Positions 4,649 to 58,259 of a stretch of 59,737 bases of DNA are shown in pieces. The notes beneath the pieces are model-generated. The model was given only the letters and a program-made list of their open reading frames with translations. It did no database searches and had not been told where the DNA came from. The translations under genes and the position numbers were made by a program. Within the stretch, counting starts at the first letter, position 1. Every line of letters begins with the position of its first letter. Origin of the DNA: a virus; the IMG/VR virus record IMGVR_UViG_3300025889_000127, positions 1-59,737 of that record; one strand, given 5' to 3'.

Positions 4649-5417
4649 TCTTGCCAAAGTCCTTGTGGGCTCGACAAGCCCAGTATCCTGCTGTTAGTTT
4701 TCTGTTTGGCTTCTTGGCTTTGTCGGCACAGTTATGTCGAGAAGCAAATGACTTTCTGGCTTCTGCACTATTCCAGTTGCCCTTTAGACCGCCCTTAGAA
4801 TCGCCGTAAGTAATAGTTCTTATGTTGCCAGTCTTAGGATCCTTGACATATACTTTATACTTCTTCCCGCCACCAGAGTTTTTCATTGGCTTGTTGAGAG
4901 GACCCTTTTTCTTTTTCTCTTCATACAATGCTGGAGAAGCCTCAACATACATTGGGAAATCCAAAGGAACATCTTGACCTTCTTCTTCGTGCCAAGCCCA
5001 TTCACCTAGGTCTGGATTTTCATTGATGAACTCTTGCTCTTCTTCTGAGAAATCGTACTTGCCTTCTTTGTTGAGCTTCTTGGCTTCTTCGATAAGTTCA
5101 AAGTAAGCGTCGGAACCAAGTCGATAAATACATTCAGTTATTGGGAGGTTGTTGTCAATGTGGTGCTGCATACCCTCTGAGATGTAATCACCATCTCTGT
5201 GCTGCATTACTTTCTTCATTTTCTTCAAAAGATCTTTGACATCTTTCTCTGTTATGCCACTTTCAACCTCTTTAGCAGACTTTACCAAAGGATCAAGACC
5301 AGCCGCACCGCCTTCATCACTGAGCGTGTCTAGGATAGCTTTCTCTACTTTGGGTTGGATTTCTTTGTTGATCTCTTCTAAGATGATCTTTCTTAGTTGT
5401 GACTTTGTTATTTTCAT
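4626..5417 (-). CDS. MKIT-module protein with a C-terminal basic domain (DUF5872-like)
   Basis: 263 aa in three parts. Residues 1-20 are the N-terminal module (MKITKSQLRKIILEEI), nearly identical to those of neighbouring genes. The middle is acidic and helical. The last 85 residues, after a Gly/Lys linker, form a basic domain: KYKVYVKDPKTGNIRTITYGD, then RKSFASRHNCAD and AGYWACRAHKDFG. I recognise this Cys/Trp/His-containing domain from marine phages and large DNA viruses (I believe DUF5872); its biochemical role is unknown. The start overlaps the previous stop by ATGA. Possible nucleic-acid binding is inferred from charge only. Confidence 0.8.
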   Translation of the reverse strand: MKITKSQLRKIILEEINKEIQPKVEKAILDTLSDEGGAAGLDPLVKSAKEVESGITEKDVKDLLKKMKKVMQHRDGDYISEGMQHHIDNNLPITECIYRLGSDAYFELIEEAKKLNKEGKYDFSEEEQEFINENPDLGEWAWHEEEGQDVPLDFPMYVEASPALYEEKKKKGPLNKPMKNSGGGKKYKVYVKDPKTGNIRTITYGDSKGGLKGNWNSAEARKSFASRHNCADKAKKPNRKLTAGYWACRAHKDFGKNVPGRFW

Positions 5418-49695: not shown

Positions 49696-52600
49696 TTATC
49701 TCCGTCTTTGACGTTTTCCACGATTTACTTTAGGTTTGTTGCTTTTTCTTTTCTTTCCCTTGGGATAGACAGGCTTTGCACCCAGTGGAAGCGAGTATCC
49801 GCCAACAGCACCACCAGCCATCGTGCTCATCTCTTCAATAGCATCATCAATTAAGTTGTCCAAACTCTCTTCCTTTTTTGTCAAAGTATTCCAGAGAGCA
49901 TCAGCATCTGCACTTGGCGGAACATAAGATAAGAAAGTTTCTCTGTCACCATCGTTAATAGCTTTTCTCATATCACGAGCACTGTAAACAATACCGCCTT
50001 CTGACTGAACTGGGTCTTCAACGATGTCATCAACTGTTACACCTGGGTTGTGCTTGTCAGCATATTGTTGTGCTCTGTTGAAGCGAGTGTCGCCAACATC
50101 CTTACTGCTCTTCACTAGAAGAACTGTGTCGCCTTCTTTAGCAGATTCAGGATCAGCTACAAACTCATAGACGGCTTGTACGGGGCTTCTGTAGTCTGCA
50201 ATCTTTGCAGTGATGTTTGGCTCACCATTCTGAAGATAGGTTTCCCAGATTTTGAGAGACTGTTGATTGCTGACTTCTGGGTAATCGACGGGAGAAATAA
50301 GAATAATAACTTCATCAACATCAGGACGCTTAGCAATCTGATTTACATAATCAAAGTGACCTCTGTGAGGTGGTTTGAACTTCCCTGGGAAAAGAGCAAC
50401 TCTTCTACCTTCTGCTTCGGTGATGATCTTGTTATGATCTAGGGACTCTTGTTGTGTGGAAGCATCAGCTACCTGTTGTGTCATTTCTCTGCCGATAACC
50501 TCAGAGTCTTTGATGGCTTCTGTACCAGCGTTGATAGCCTGGCTTCGATCACCGTAAGTGAAATAGTTATCAATGTTTTCAGACAGTTTTTTGGTAGCAT
50601 CAAAGATATCTTCAACGGACTTGCTTAGCTGGTCCATATGTTGTGTAGCTATTTTTACGATTGTTTCAGGAGATACAGGTAGGTATCCAAGCTTACCCCA
50701 CTGAGAAATGTCTTTGGTTTTTGGTAAACGACTATAAGTTACAGACCATTGCTTTCCGCCTGTCTTTCCTTCGTTGATCAAATACTCATTCATCAACTCT
50801 CGATTTTCTTCGATGGTAATTGTTCTTAGGTTCTCTTTTCTGACTTGTTGGTCATCATCTTGAGCAGAAACAATACCTCTTTCTTTGTCGTTTAGTTCTT
50901 TTTCTTTGCGAGCCTTATCAAGGTCTGTTTCTCTTTGTTTTGCGTTATATCCATTTGTGCGCTGATACACTCGGTACTGTTCTTCCCAACTGTTTGCCTT
51001 TTTTAGTTCTTCTAAAGTGCTGGTATATGGCTCATCACCAATCCCAAGAATAGCATTAGAAGTTTTATCTTGTTTTCCTGCTGACAGCAATCCGAATATA
51101 TTATCCCTTGTGAACATAAACTTTTCTATGGATATCTCATCGCCAAGCTTCCTAGCGACGATATACAACATACCATTTTCATATTCATTTAGGGCATCGA
51201 TAAGGTTTGTGTAACTGCCGTGGATGTCACCTTTTTCCCTGAGAAGTTTCAAACTGACAGGTACTTCATACTCTTCGCCAAGATCTGTAAAAGCAATCAA
51301 ATCCTGAATCGGAAGATTTCCTTTTGCTGTTATTGGGTCTGATTCTTGTTTACCGCTAAGCATTGCGGCAAGGAACCCCTCAAATACAAATCCTGCGGCA
51401 GAAGAAGAGAAGCTGTGAATAACAGCACTCAAGGACTCTAGCATAATAAGAGTGCTAATAATACGCCGTGGAGATGTCATCTTAGATTCAGAAGATGCTC
51501 TCCTCATAAGATCTTTTAGTCTCTCTTCAATACTTGCTCCACCTGAAATAGTTGAGAATATCTTTTGAACCTGCTTCCTCTCCATAGAATCAGGCTTACC
51601 CCAGTTTTCTGTTGGAATAAACTTAGGGAGCGAGAGAACAAACTTTTTAGCTCGATCAGCCTTAATGTTAGCTTCATCCTCAGTTAATATATTCTTACGA
51701 GGCTGAACGCTCTCATTTGTCATAGGCTTCGTACCCATTCCATACTTAAACATCCCAAGGATCTGATTCAATGGAGCAAAGTTACCTGAAAACTTATATG
51801 TGTGACCGTTGTAGTCAAAGACAACAGCCTCAACAGGAGTTGTTATCTGAGAGAAGTCTTTTATTTTGTTTAGGTGCCTTTGCATTACTTCCATAGCAGC
51901 AGGATCTTCTGCACCTCTGGCTGTGATTTCTCTCACAGCATTTGCCAACTCTTCCTTGAGTCGCATAACTTCAGCGCTTGTATCAGCGATGAATACACTG
52001 TCAAGACCTTTTAGGAGTTCTACAGCAAAGTCGTGAACAATATTCTCAAGAGGTTCGATTGCTTGTAGGAGTAATGACTTCTTTGAAGCAATAACATTGT
52101 TCAGGTCTGCTAGATCTTCTTTGGATAATCCTTTTTTGATTGCCCTCAGACCGATGTTACCTGGGAGCTTCATCAAATAGCGGACGATTTCTCTTCTGAT
52201 GTTCTCTGGAAGTTCTGTGTCCATTCCATTTAGAAGCCTAGTAAACATATAGTCTTCCATCGTGGATTCGTCATTTAGGTTGTTGTCCGCCATCTGCCTG
52301 TTTAGGGCAGCTATTGAGCGTGAAAGTACCTCTTCATCTTCAAGTCTCTGAAGATTGATTATAGCTTTTCTAGCGAGCTTGTATTTGCTTTCAGATTTCG
52401 AAAGCTGTCTTTGCATTCTTTCAAGGGCGTCATCAATTACTTCTAGGGCACCATCTGGTATTGGATTCTTTTCGCCCGTCTCTTTGTCAAAAGCAAAATG
52501 ACCAACACCGTGGATTTTCAAAGTCTTATCATCATATTTGATAACATTTACTGATCCTGGATCATCTGGATCACCAGTAGTGCCTGGGTCCATTATCTCG

Positions 52601-52965
52601 GCATTGTACCAAATATTAGCGTCTGGTCCGAAGGCTCTGATCTTTTCTCTATCAGAAAGCGATTCAACTGCTTTTTCAAAAGCATCAAAACCATTGACAA
52701 AGGCTTTCTCTAGACCACCTCTACCAGCAAACTTCTTTGCCAATCCAACAGCATCCAAACCACCAGACTTTAGATTGCCTTTATTACGAGCGCCTTTTGC
52801 CTTACCTTCGGGAACAGAATAAGAAAGAAATAAGTTCTGACCATCTACCTTTTCTTCGGTAGAGAGTTCGGCATTAGCAGCCGCACGGATAATCTCCTTC
52901 ATTTCACCAAAAGTTAATTCTCTATTATCATAGAGATGATCCATGTGACCAGCAACGCCGCCCAT
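49696..52965 (-). CDS. Fusion of ligase-like nucleotidyltransferase and HxGH nucleotidylyltransferase
   Basis: 1089 aa. The N-terminus has the covalent nucleotidyltransferase motif I as EKVDGQNLF (K39-x-D-G42), then GARNKGN (about 58-64) and an IWYNAEIMDP acidic segment near 115, the order seen in ATP-dependent DNA/RNA ligase cores. The middle (about 330-830) is unassigned. At 853-890 a second enzyme begins: GRRVALFPGKFKPPHRGHFDY, with HxGH at 867-870, and SARDMRKAI near 1005 as the ISSTxxR-like motif of NMNAT/cytidylyltransferases. The end (STMAGGAVGGYSLPLG, then KKRKSNKPKVNRGKRQRRR) is basic. Could join RNA repair with NAD metabolism; family unknown. GAGG precedes the ATG. Confidence 0.8.
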   Translation of the reverse strand: MGGVAGHMDHLYDNRELTFGEMKEIIRAAANAELSTEEKVDGQNLFLSYSVPEGKAKGARNKGNLKSGGLDAVGLAKKFAGRGGLEKAFVNGFDAFEKAVESLSDREKIRAFGPDANIWYNAEIMDPGTTGDPDDPGSVNVIKYDDKTLKIHGVGHFAFDKETGEKNPIPDGALEVIDDALERMQRQLSKSESKYKLARKAIINLQRLEDEEVLSRSIAALNRQMADNNLNDESTMEDYMFTRLLNGMDTELPENIRREIVRYLMKLPGNIGLRAIKKGLSKEDLADLNNVIASKKSLLLQAIEPLENIVHDFAVELLKGLDSVFIADTSAEVMRLKEELANAVREITARGAEDPAAMEVMQRHLNKIKDFSQITTPVEAVVFDYNGHTYKFSGNFAPLNQILGMFKYGMGTKPMTNESVQPRKNILTEDEANIKADRAKKFVLSLPKFIPTENWGKPDSMERKQVQKIFSTISGGASIEERLKDLMRRASSESKMTSPRRIISTLIMLESLSAVIHSFSSSAAGFVFEGFLAAMLSGKQESDPITAKGNLPIQDLIAFTDLGEEYEVPVSLKLLREKGDIHGSYTNLIDALNEYENGMLYIVARKLGDEISIEKFMFTRDNIFGLLSAGKQDKTSNAILGIGDEPYTSTLEELKKANSWEEQYRVYQRTNGYNAKQRETDLDKARKEKELNDKERGIVSAQDDDQQVRKENLRTITIEENRELMNEYLINEGKTGGKQWSVTYSRLPKTKDISQWGKLGYLPVSPETIVKIATQHMDQLSKSVEDIFDATKKLSENIDNYFTYGDRSQAINAGTEAIKDSEVIGREMTQQVADASTQQESLDHNKIITEAEGRRVALFPGKFKPPHRGHFDYVNQIAKRPDVDEVIILISPVDYPEVSNQQSLKIWETYLQNGEPNITAKIADYRSPVQAVYEFVADPESAKEGDTVLLVKSSKDVGDTRFNRAQQYADKHNPGVTVDDIVEDPVQSEGGIVYSARDMRKAINDGDRETFLSYVPPSADADALWNTLTKKEESLDNLIDDAIEEMSTMAGGAVGGYSLPLGAKPVYPKGKKRKSNKPKVNRGKRQRRR

Positions 52966-54844: not shown

Positions 54845-55741
54845 TTACTTTCCGAACATTTTGTCTAAAGAGTGCTTCATCCTATTCATCCACTTTTCGT
54901 CGATCTGAGTCCCAGAAGCAGGTTTATTGCTTTTTTCCCAGAGATTCATTTCAGCTAAAGCAATGCTTTTCTTAAGGAATACACGAATCGCAACGAGGGG
55001 AGAGGAAAGACCAACATTCTCTATAGCAGGGTAGCCAGCGAATATCAAACCGACAATCTTATGATCTTTGTTTATGATTGCTGATCCGCTTGAGCCTGGT
55101 TTTGTTGGCAGTGTGTATACTGAGTACCCAAGTGTATGATATCCTGAGAAATATCCCTTGAAAATAAGAACTGAACCAGGCCAGAAAAGACCGTGAGGTG
55201 CAGCAAGGTTTGTCACCATCTCACCACGCTCAGGTTCTTTGTCAGCAAGTCTCAGGGTTGTCAACCTCTTATAAACATCGGAAACTTTTAGAAGACAGAG
55301 ATCAAATCTTTTATTTGTCATAACGACTTCTGCGTTATAATGCTGACCTTCTAGATCTACAACCTTGAAGGTTGATCCCTTATTCTTAATCATAATACCT
55401 TCTATGATCTGAACAGGTGGGATCTTATTTTCACAAGAGTGACCAGCAGTCATAACATAGGACACGTTATCAGATACTTCACTATGAAAGACAAAAGAAC
55501 CAGATGAAACATATCTCATATTGGCTTTTTGACACTTTCTTTCGCCTGTTTTAGGATCATTTCCACAACCCTCAAGCAAAACTGAGTGTTTTATTTGAGC
55601 AAATGCTTCTCTTGGTAGTGGCTTTTCAGACCACATATTAGAGACATTGACATTTACTGTTTTACAACCACTTGCGCAACTAGCAAGGCTGAGAAGCCCT
55701 ACGATCAGAAACTTGACGTAAAGTGATGTTTTTTTCTTCAT
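54845..55741 (-). CDS. Exported trypsin-like serine protease, lipoprotein
   Basis: 298 aa. Residues 1-22 are a lipoprotein signal (MKKKTSLYVKFLIVGLLSLASC, lipobox LASC with C22). The mature part has the trypsin-fold triad: H101 in VMTAGHSC, D147 in RFDLCLLKV, S218 in PGSSGSAII. Extra cysteines (C59, C70, C103) may form disulfides. It would be anchored in the outer or inner membrane and act in the periplasm. In a phage this is unusual; it may remodel the host envelope or cut surface proteins to limit superinfection. It is divergent from the plus-strand cassette. Confidence 0.83.
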   Translation of the reverse strand: MKKKTSLYVKFLIVGLLSLASCASGCKTVNVNVSNMWSEKPLPREAFAQIKHSVLLEGCGNDPKTGERKCQKANMRYVSSGSFVFHSEVSDNVSYVMTAGHSCENKIPPVQIIEGIMIKNKGSTFKVVDLEGQHYNAEVVMTNKRFDLCLLKVSDVYKRLTTLRLADKEPERGEMVTNLAAPHGLFWPGSVLIFKGYFSGYHTLGYSVYTLPTKPGSSGSAIINKDHKIVGLIFAGYPAIENVGLSSPLVAIRVFLKKSIALAEMNLWEKSNKPASGTQIDEKWMNRMKHSLDKMFGK

Positions 55742-56083: not shown

Positions 56084-56563
56084 ATGTTCAGTATCCTCGT
56101 ATCTTCAAAACGAAAAGAAATACTTCTTGTTTTACTAGCGCTTTCAGGCGCAGTTTCATACTACTACTATGCTATGGCGAATATTGAGTATCCGACCATA
56201 ATCGCAAAGAAAAGTACTTTCTATACTCCAGGACAACACGACAACTGCAAGTGGGTTATCCACATCAGTGATGAAGTGACAACATTTCCTGGAGACACAT
56301 CATCCGCACAAATAGGGATTCCAGAAGTCATTAAGGATGGCTACATTTCTGGAATCTTGCAGAGTGGTCCAGGAAACTCTTTATTGTTGGCTTTCAGTAT
56401 GCCAAACCAGCCACCATCTTCTCCACCATTGATTATGACCTCATCATATGAAAAGGATAAGCTACCACTTCACACAATGAAGTTCAGAGTTTTCAACAGC
56501 ACTGCTTTGTCTATGACATTGTACTCAACATATGAAGAATGTATTCAGGCTACTATGAAATGA
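56084..56563 (+). CDS. Membrane-anchored exported protein, 159 aa
   Basis: Starts MFSILVSSKRKEILLVLLAL, one N-terminal hydrophobic span (about residues 13-30), then a periplasmic or surface domain rich in Pro/Ser/Tyr containing two Cys (C54, C153). AGGAGAGC lies 8 nt before the ATG. The stop overlaps the next start by ATGA at 56560, so translation continues to the VWA lipoprotein. No family recognised. Confidence 0.7.
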   Translation: MFSILVSSKRKEILLVLLALSGAVSYYYYAMANIEYPTIIAKKSTFYTPGQHDNCKWVIHISDEVTTFPGDTSSAQIGIPEVIKDGYISGILQSGPGNSLLLAFSMPNQPPSSPPLIMTSSYEKDKLPLHTMKFRVFNSTALSMTLYSTYEECIQATMK

Positions 56564-57798
56564 AACGTCTTCTCTTTTTGAGTATCTTTGTTTTTTCTGC
56601 CTGCGAAGAAGATCGGCTTGTAAAGTTAGAATGCGTTCTTGGCGATAAACTCGTCTGTAACGAGTTTGGACAGAACTTTCCAGCCGTTGATCCAGCCGAC
56701 ATCCCAGAGAGAACAGGTCAATGCTCTTATGGAACGAGAACCTGTACAATAAACGGCTGGGGAGAATGTGAGGGAGCAAAAGGACCAGAAGAAGAAGTTT
56801 GTGATGGGATTGATAACGATTGTGATATGACGATCGACGAAACCTACCCAGAAGAACATCAACTTTGCGGGTTCCAAGAAAATATAGACTACGGAGTTGG
56901 TATCTGCAAGCCAGGTGTTATGACCTGTTATAACGGCGTTCTGTATTGTGATGGTCACGTAGGACCTGATGATGAAATCTGTGATGGCGTTGATAACAAC
57001 TGCAACGGAACTGTTGATGAGGGTATTGCTAATGCTACAGCGGTTGCCTGTTATGAAGGACCTGAAGGGACTCTAGCTGTTGGTGAGTGTCGAGCAGGCA
57101 TTCGCTATTGTACTGACGGCAACTTTGGCGGTCCTTGTGATGGTCAGGTTTTACCAACTGCTGAAAGATGTGATGACCTTGATAATGATTGTGACGGAGA
57201 AGTCGATGAAGGCTTTGATACCCGTGGTGTAGATTTGGTTTTTGTTATCGATATATCTGGTTCCTTCGATGACGAGATAGAGTCAATGATTTTAGGCATA
57301 ACTCCTCTTTTAGACGACCCGATAACGAGCAGATTTCGTTTTGGACTAGTTGTTGTAGGTGCTAGGCAGGGTGAAGATATAAGACCGCATAATCTATACT
57401 CTAGAATGGTCTCTGATTTTGTTCCCGCTGATGAGTTCGTGGCGATTTTGGAAGCAGGCAGAATGATTGATAGTGCTGGGCAAGAACCAACCATTGATAC
57501 AATGTACTGGGCAATGAACAGATACCCATTTTCGTGGAGACCAGAAGCACAAAAAGTTGTTATCACAATGACTGATGAAATAGCCCAGACAATCACATCA
57601 ATGACCTGCTTAGAAGTAGGAACTCACGCCGACAACTATGGATATGAGTTGTTTGTATTTGCCCTACAAGAGCATCATAGGAGTTTCTTAGATTGTGTTG
57701 GTGGGAACAGAGACAGGCTTTATAGCCCAACTGCTAACTCTGAAACAGTATTCTATCAGATTAGGGCAATCTTTGAAGACCTTTGTGTAGGTCATTGA
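56560..57798 (+). CDS. Lipoprotein with three MopE metal-binding repeats and a VWA domain
   Basis: 412 aa. Signal peptide with lipobox MKRLLFLSIFVFSAC (C15). Three Cys-rich MopE-type repeats, each C-DG-(I/V/L)-DN-(D/N)-C-(D/N)-x-(T/E)-(I/V)-DE, at about 81-94, 141-154 and 204-217. Then a von Willebrand A domain beginning LVFVIDISGS (MIDAS-like D231-x-S-x-S235) with later ITMTDE at the fourth metal-binding strand. MopE repeats bind calcium or copper and are characteristic of Myxococcota and related bacteria; VWA domains mediate adhesion. Likely displayed on the cell surface; effect on host adhesion or predation is speculation. Confidence 0.85.
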   Translation: MKRLLFLSIFVFSACEEDRLVKLECVLGDKLVCNEFGQNFPAVDPADIPERTGQCSYGTRTCTINGWGECEGAKGPEEEVCDGIDNDCDMTIDETYPEEHQLCGFQENIDYGVGICKPGVMTCYNGVLYCDGHVGPDDEICDGVDNNCNGTVDEGIANATAVACYEGPEGTLAVGECRAGIRYCTDGNFGGPCDGQVLPTAERCDDLDNDCDGEVDEGFDTRGVDLVFVIDISGSFDDEIESMILGITPLLDDPITSRFRFGLVVVGARQGEDIRPHNLYSRMVSDFVPADEFVAILEAGRMIDSAGQEPTIDTMYWAMNRYPFSWRPEAQKVVITMTDEIAQTITSMTCLEVGTHADNYGYELFVFALQEHHRSFLDCVGGNRDRLYSPTANSETVFYQIRAIFEDLCVGH

Positions 57799-57801
57799 TC
57801 A

Positions 57802-57936
57802 TCAATCTATATCTATTTTAGATGGCTTCATATTAAATGGATGCAGGAACTTGTTCTTGAAGTCTACTCTGCCTCCATATTCGCCCATATTTCCTCCAAA
57901 GACAATGTTTTCATTTTCCTCAGGAGGGTTTTCTAC
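57802..57936 (-). other. Predicted -1 frameshift extension of the acidic protein
   Basis: After A-AAA-AAG (57936-57942) the -1 frame is open for 44 codons: VENPPEENEN, then IVFGGNMGEYGGRVDFKNKF and a tail ending in MKPSKIDID and TGA at 57802-57804. AGAGGG sits exactly 10 bases before the heptamer, as the dnaX stimulator does. A separate start (ATG 57886-57888, GGAGGA ahead) could instead make only the last 28 codons. No strong downstream stem was found. Confidence 0.55.
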
Positions 57937-58259
57937 TTTTTTGTTTTTTTAGCCCTCTTTTTTGGCTCTTCTTCTGTTTCTTCTGAGGTCTCTTCGATCT
58001 CTTCTTTGATGAGGGTTGCGATGCCTTCTAGTTGATTACAGGATTTTCTAAGGGTTTCTATGTACTCTTCCATTGATTCTAGAGCTTCTTCAGCGTTACC
58101 ATCAACAAGATGCTGCTGCATAGGGCTGGAGTTTCCATTGTGGGCTTTCTCAACTCTATTCAAGGCTACCAAAGTCATATACCTAAGAGAAACTAGCAAG
58201 TCTTCTTGATATACTTCTAGAGTTATTTCTTTCTTATCCCATTTGTTGTCAGTTGTCAT
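57933..58259 (-). CDS. Small acidic protein, zero-frame product (108 aa)
   Basis: 108 aa in the standard frame: an N-terminal helix (KWDKKEITLEVYQEDLLVSL), then coiled-coil-prone acidic helices (EEALESMEEYIETLRKSCNQL) and a Lys-rich end RAKKTKK that stops at TAG. The last codons include the heptamer A-AAA-AAG followed by the stop. The ATG overlaps the J-domain gene stop (ATGA) with AAAGGAG ahead. Function unknown; see the frameshift extension. Confidence 0.8.
   Translation of the reverse strand: MTTDNKWDKKEITLEVYQEDLLVSLRYMTLVALNRVEKAHNGNSSPMQQHLVDGNAEEALESMEEYIETLRKSCNQLEGIATLIKEEIEETSEETEEEPKKRAKKTKK

Follow-up and report, generated by a model that had tools for sequence, protein, structure and literature searches.

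Among phages, the best-known cases of frameshifting are those of tail assembly chaperones and coat proteins. A small gene on the minus strand of a 59.7-kb viral contig (the whole stretch analysed here, referred to as the window) raises the question of whether one phage gene of a different setting also yields two proteins, a short one that ends at its stop codon and a long one that continues in the -1 frame. An initial annotation of this DNA, in which the strand was not given, had proposed a programmed -1 frameshift as its main claim. That claim is supported here by the presence of the heptamer and of both frames in five further, divergent loci. The mechanism as such is already known; its probable occurrence in a gene family for small helical proteins is new, and the family, found beside fibre genes, was previously undescribed.

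Results

The candidate slip site and its two reading frames

The 3' end of the 108-aa ORF reads ACA AAA AAG TAG, and the elements to which the initial annotation had drawn attention, a heptamer A_AAA_AAG before TAG, a 44-codon -1 frame and an AGAGGG 10 nt upstream, are all confirmed at their coordinates (Table 1). The spacer from AGAGGG to the heptamer is exactly 10 nt (CTAAAAAAAC), and the -1 ORF overlaps the 0-frame ORF by 16 nt (AAAAACAAAAAAGTAG), with one in-phase heptamer inside the overlap. The tail added by the -1 frame would be VENPPEENENIVFGGNMGEYGGRVDFKNKFLHPFNMKPSKIDID (44 codons), ending with a TGA (57804-57802) that lies 4 nt short of the end of the convergent MopE-motif/VWA gene; the predicted fusion peptide across the slip junction is KKTKKVENPPEEN, and VENPPEENENIVFGGNMGEYGGR is an example of a predicted tail peptide joined to the core. 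As a bare string, AAAAAAG shows no enrichment in the window (25 copies against 25.6 expected), and the SD-like stretches at the slip sites belong to coding sequence rich in Glu and Lys, in which GAGG is frequent. An in-phase A_AAA_AAG occurs five times in the 42 predicted genes of the window, twice in the C-terminus of the core gene; only the heptamer at 57942-57936 opens a long -1 ORF (44 codons), the other in-phase cases leading to 2-17 codons. On the 3' side, the segment 57927-57893 is predicted to fold at -14.3 kcal/mol, against -6.57 +/- 2.12 for shuffled sequences (z -3.65; 0 of 200 as stable), so the earlier remark that a strong downstream stem is lacking was wrong. Stop-codon readthrough was rejected, as the 0-frame past TAG runs for 22 codons that have no counterpart in the relative L118.

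Table 1. Positions of the elements of the frameshift locus and of genes discussed in the text (window coordinates)
Feature	Position	Strand	Remarks
Fibre-like repeat protein, at least 154 aa	58977..59441	-	Upstream of the J-domain-like gene
J-domain-like (THPD) gene, 203 aa	58256..58867	-	4-nt overlap with the core start
0-frame ORF, 108 aa, TAG stop	57933..58259	-	Predicted short isoform (core); homologues in 27 loci
Second in-phase A_AAA_AAG	57957..57963	-	A slip there would reach TAA after two codons, so no long form
Shine-Dalgarno-like AGAGGG	57953..57958	-	10 nt 5' of the heptamer; AAGGGG at the same place in L118
Slippery heptamer A_AAA_AAG	57936..57942	-	In phase, directly 5' of TAG
-1 frame extension, 44 codons + TGA stop	57802..57936	-	C-terminal tail of the predicted long isoform, 152 aa in total
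Predicted stimulatory RNA hairpin	57893..57927	-	8 nt 3' of the heptamer; the GGAGG (57897-57893) preceding the internal ATG lies in its 3' arm
MopE-motif/VWA gene, convergent	56539..57798	+	Its end bounds the -1 extension; anchor for relatives
Trypsin-like serine protease	54845..55741	-	Lipoprotein-like signal; same region as the fibre cassette
1089-aa protein	49696..52965	-	Nucleotidyltransferase-like C-terminal part; near-invariant N-terminus MGGVAGHM

Gene setting and relatives

Judged by its gene content, which includes baseplate-wedge, PhoH, primase and RuvC-like genes, the window comes from a large phage of myovirus-like type. The 152-aa fusion, used directly as a protein query, gave no matches, nor did a search with the neighbour protein alone, and a two-row profile search returned only the contig of L118. 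The core protein diverges too much to be found by direct search, and relatives were therefore reached through neighbours serving as anchors, namely the 1089-aa protein, PhoH, the convergent MopE/VWA protein and the J-domain-like protein. The core profile matches 27 distinct loci at E < 1e-18, the next best matches being no better than 0.3, and the order fibre-like gene, J-domain-like gene, small helical gene and convergent MopE/VWA gene recurs in the relatives. The HPD motif is invariant across the alignment of relatives of the J-domain-like gene; compared with Pfam DnaJ, these relatives score E 4e-5 and 24 bits, where the curated cut-off is 27.8.

Three arrangements are found among the relatives. 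In the first, the core ORF has no extension and ends at the convergent gene, the same boundary that the -1 tail reaches elsewhere; the second has a longer tail that continues the core frame; in the third, represented by the window, L118, L107, L093, L075 and L086 (one contig for each case), the 0-frame stops early and a homologous tail runs in the -1 frame up to the convergent gene. Most relatives are without a frameshifted tail. The in-frame tails of L080, L081, L094 and others were rejected as instances of the same domain, having no match to the extension profile, and we do not claim homology for them. The frameshift loci included sit on several branches, among tail-less loci, of a tree of the J-domain-like protein (built without L118, L093 and L084, and with a long branch for the window itself), a distribution that seems to fit repeated loss or exchange of the tail better than a single late gain.

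Some of the surrounding genes have features of their own. The MopE/VWA protein has a lipoprotein-like start and is 50-97% identical across these phages, far above the identity of its neighbours; it may be a surface protein that is mobile or under strong constraint. The 1089-aa protein matches at least 138 viral contig stretches, and a scan of genome contigs with it found no relative and hence no clue to the host. In L104, L105, L106 and L119, contigs that are near-identical otherwise, the linker of the J-domain-like gene (gene end near 5303) carries an IEE/EEI repeat that differs in copy number, and only a remnant of the core gene is found downstream of the J-domain-like gene. L005 and L010 have, on our reading, TilS-like and methyltransferase-like genes upstream of the fibre. 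J-domain-like genes seem to be widespread among large phages: in L163, L169, L174, L182, L183, L187 and other large phages, the genes for similar proteins overlap a RuvC-like gene and are not behind a fibre. In the distant J-domain loci L163-L191 and L202-L246, neither core nor tail was found in the downstream region.

Conservation of the candidate slip site and of both frames

Alignment of relatives, a check put forward in the initial annotation, was run, and the heptamer and both frames are conserved in L118, L107, L093, L075 and L086, the cores of which are 20-44% identical to that of the window. In all six -1 loci an in-phase A_AAA_AAG (A_AAA_AAA in L093) lies inside the overlap of the frames. 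This overlap measures 10 nt in L086, 16 in the window, 22 in L093 and 34 in L075, always includes the A-run and, in L086, is exactly AAAAAAG-TAG. The SD-like element is found at 10 nt in the window and in L118, with looser spacing in the other -1 loci. Downstream hairpins are also predicted for L086 (6 nt after the heptamer, z -4.41) and L075 (5 nt, z -2.66), and a significant one is absent in L093 (z -0.36), L107 (z -0.38) and L118 (z +0.80).

The -1 tails are homologous, with the aligned consensus DGxxxLGKxGxxGG...GxW. Between the window and L118, differences at -1 codon positions 1/2/3 number 15/10/29 (Fisher p = 4e-5); the corresponding counts are 15/4/19 for L107 and L075 (p = 0.007) and 15/12/22 for L093 and L075 (p = 0.013), and the pair L107-L093 gives no significant result (p = 0.14). 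From the codon-position pattern it follows, therefore, that the -1 frame evolves as a protein. Within the core gene, synonymous changes among residues identical in the window and L118 amount to 23/37 in the body, 2/9 in the last ten aligned codons and 0/5 in the last five; close to the site, the two loci thus preserve their codons along with the residues.

The 0-frame stop comes directly after the slip in the window and L086 (TAG) and in L118 (TAA); in L093, L107 and L075 it follows at a distance of one to several codons. Because these stops differ between loci, a shared assembly error is unlikely. The loss of one base from a true in-frame fusion during assembly, or decay into a pseudogene, could give a similar picture at a single locus, homopolymers being error-prone (the locus L102, described below, may be such a case). 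However, six contigs agree in arrangement and position while differing in stop codons and distances, the -1 frame is under protein selection, and no in-frame fusion of core and tail occurs among the relatives found; we regard error or decay as hardly credible.

The homologous tails also bear on the suggestion that the tail is a separate small gene, started from the internal ATG (57888-57886) behind GGAGGA and with a product beginning MGEYGGR. In its favour, the window offers good Shine-Dalgarno spacing, and ATG codons also occur in L118, at the corresponding position, and in L107, further upstream and behind GGAG. The start is not conserved, however: the aligned codon is GTT, GTC, CTT and GTA in L107, L093, L075 and L086, that is, no start in four of the six loci; the -1 ORF of L093 is devoid of any ATG, GTG or TTG, and that of L086 has none before the conserved motif. 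For L093 and L086 an internal start is thus refuted, unless rare start codons are used. Moreover, the 28-codon product would lose conserved residues, and the hairpin predicted for the window encloses the GGAGG. As an explanation for the family, independent initiation is very improbable.

The length of the A-run varies, from A6 in the window (with an A7 just upstream) through A6/A7 in L118, A7 in L086 and A8 in L075 and L102 to A9 in L107 and L093. For the A8-A9 runs transcriptional slippage is plausible: RNA polymerase would add one or more A's within the run, and in a share of the transcripts core and tail would then form one frame. At a length of nine A's, runs in many bacteria are known to slip or to be avoided by selection, Thermus dnaX being an example (PMC1088944). 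Slippage would also account for L102 (5262-5655, minus strand): the tail homologue there follows the A8 in the +1 frame, out of reach of a -1 slip, and could be read after losing one A. Any of three causes would suffice for this locus: a different shift, an RNA that lacks one A, or an assembly wrong by one base. Against slippage, the runs are short in the window, L118 and L086, and a homopolymer of about nine or more, absent from the window, is found only in L107 and L093. In addition, the SD spacing and the hairpins at 5-8 nt belong to the signals of ribosomal shifting and play no part in slippage. On balance, we consider transcriptional slippage improbable as the source of the long form.

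Predicted structure of core and tail

The AlphaFold2 model of the core consists of two long antiparallel helices (residues 18-53 and 56-96; mean pLDDT 84) and of a charged, disordered end, in which the slip site falls. The tail is modelled, with moderate confidence (mean pLDDT 77, pTM 0.45), as a short beta-hairpin. Foldseek searches of the PDB and of a viral structure library with the core gave no match at E <= 0.001, and the idea that the core has the fold of a fibre, coat or chaperone protein was rejected on these grounds; PHROG and Pfam yielded no match to a chaperone family. The tail was also considered as a copy of the fibre C-terminus (GGxL...GxW), and this was rejected (hhalign probability 0.2%).

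Discussion

A dnaX-type programmed -1 ribosomal frameshift probably makes a long isoform of the helical-hairpin protein. The site, its spacing, the frames and the conservation of the -1 coding frame are evident from the aligned sequences; the slipping itself, its frequency and its ribosomal nature we infer from them. AGAGGG would pair with 16S rRNA behind the ribosome, and the hairpin would stand ahead of it, causing a pause on the 108-aa ORF. The two lysine tRNAs on A_AAA_AAG could then re-pair one base back, allowing 44 more codons to be translated. Most ribosomes would end at the TAG, producing the short form, and a fraction would yield the 152-aa form with its small beta-hairpin-like tail.

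The fixed position of the gene behind the fibre-like and J-domain-like genes suggests a role in fibre assembly; judged from this context, the protein is likely an accessory factor or chaperone for assembly of the adjacent fibre, with the J-domain-like protein as partner. A minority of long subunits could give fibre assembly a second binding surface. This conserved -1 case was found only through the conservation of the alternative frame; gene callers miss the tail, and annotations of these phages consequently lack the predicted long isoform. The family comprises members with a tail, members without one, varied A-runs and one tail in a different frame, a natural set in which reframing by the ribosome could be compared with reframing during transcription.

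The E. coli dnaX site combines an SD element 10 nt upstream, A_AAA_AAG and a hairpin 6 nt downstream (PMC11162774), and this heptamer is the most shift-prone among those compared in E. coli (PMC5009743). The window shares the heptamer and the SD-like element at 10 nt, with a hairpin spacing of 8 rather than 6 nt; in contrast, the dnaX shift leads to a shorter product and that of the window would lead to a longer one, and the proteins are unrelated. In Thermus thermophilus dnaX, slippage on A9 likewise permits two products from an A-run, but the run in the window has six A's and ribosomal stimulators are present. The frameshifted coat proteins of phages (T7/T3 gene 10, Lactobacillus A2, Listeria PSA) resemble the predicted pair in having a minor, C-terminally extended isoform; unlike these, the core has no coat-protein similarity, and its extension of about 33-49 aa is not an Ig-like domain.

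In T4-like phages the tail chaperone pair reportedly arises in a different way, not by frameshifting (Vladimirov 2022, as cited in PMC10885494 and PMC12846349); another myovirus group uses a -1 shift for this purpose (PMC12846349). The parallel with tail assembly chaperones, drawn in the initial annotation, holds as an analogy only. As in G/GT of lambda and other phages, a short, mainly helical protein would receive a C-terminal extension by a -1 shift near the 3' end of its gene, here at the level of sequence. However, the lambda pair lies between the tail tube and tape-measure genes (PMC5009743), whereas the core gene lies behind fibre-like and J-domain-like genes, and the core matches no chaperone family. 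Given its position and the absence of such similarity, we do not file the core gene as a tail assembly chaperone. More speculatively, and we hold this to be unlikely, the J-domain-like protein and a frameshift-made helical pair, many short and few long, may jointly serve the fibre next to them in the way that G/GT serve the tail tube, which would make them a second kind of phage assembly chaperone with an isoform ratio set by frameshifting.
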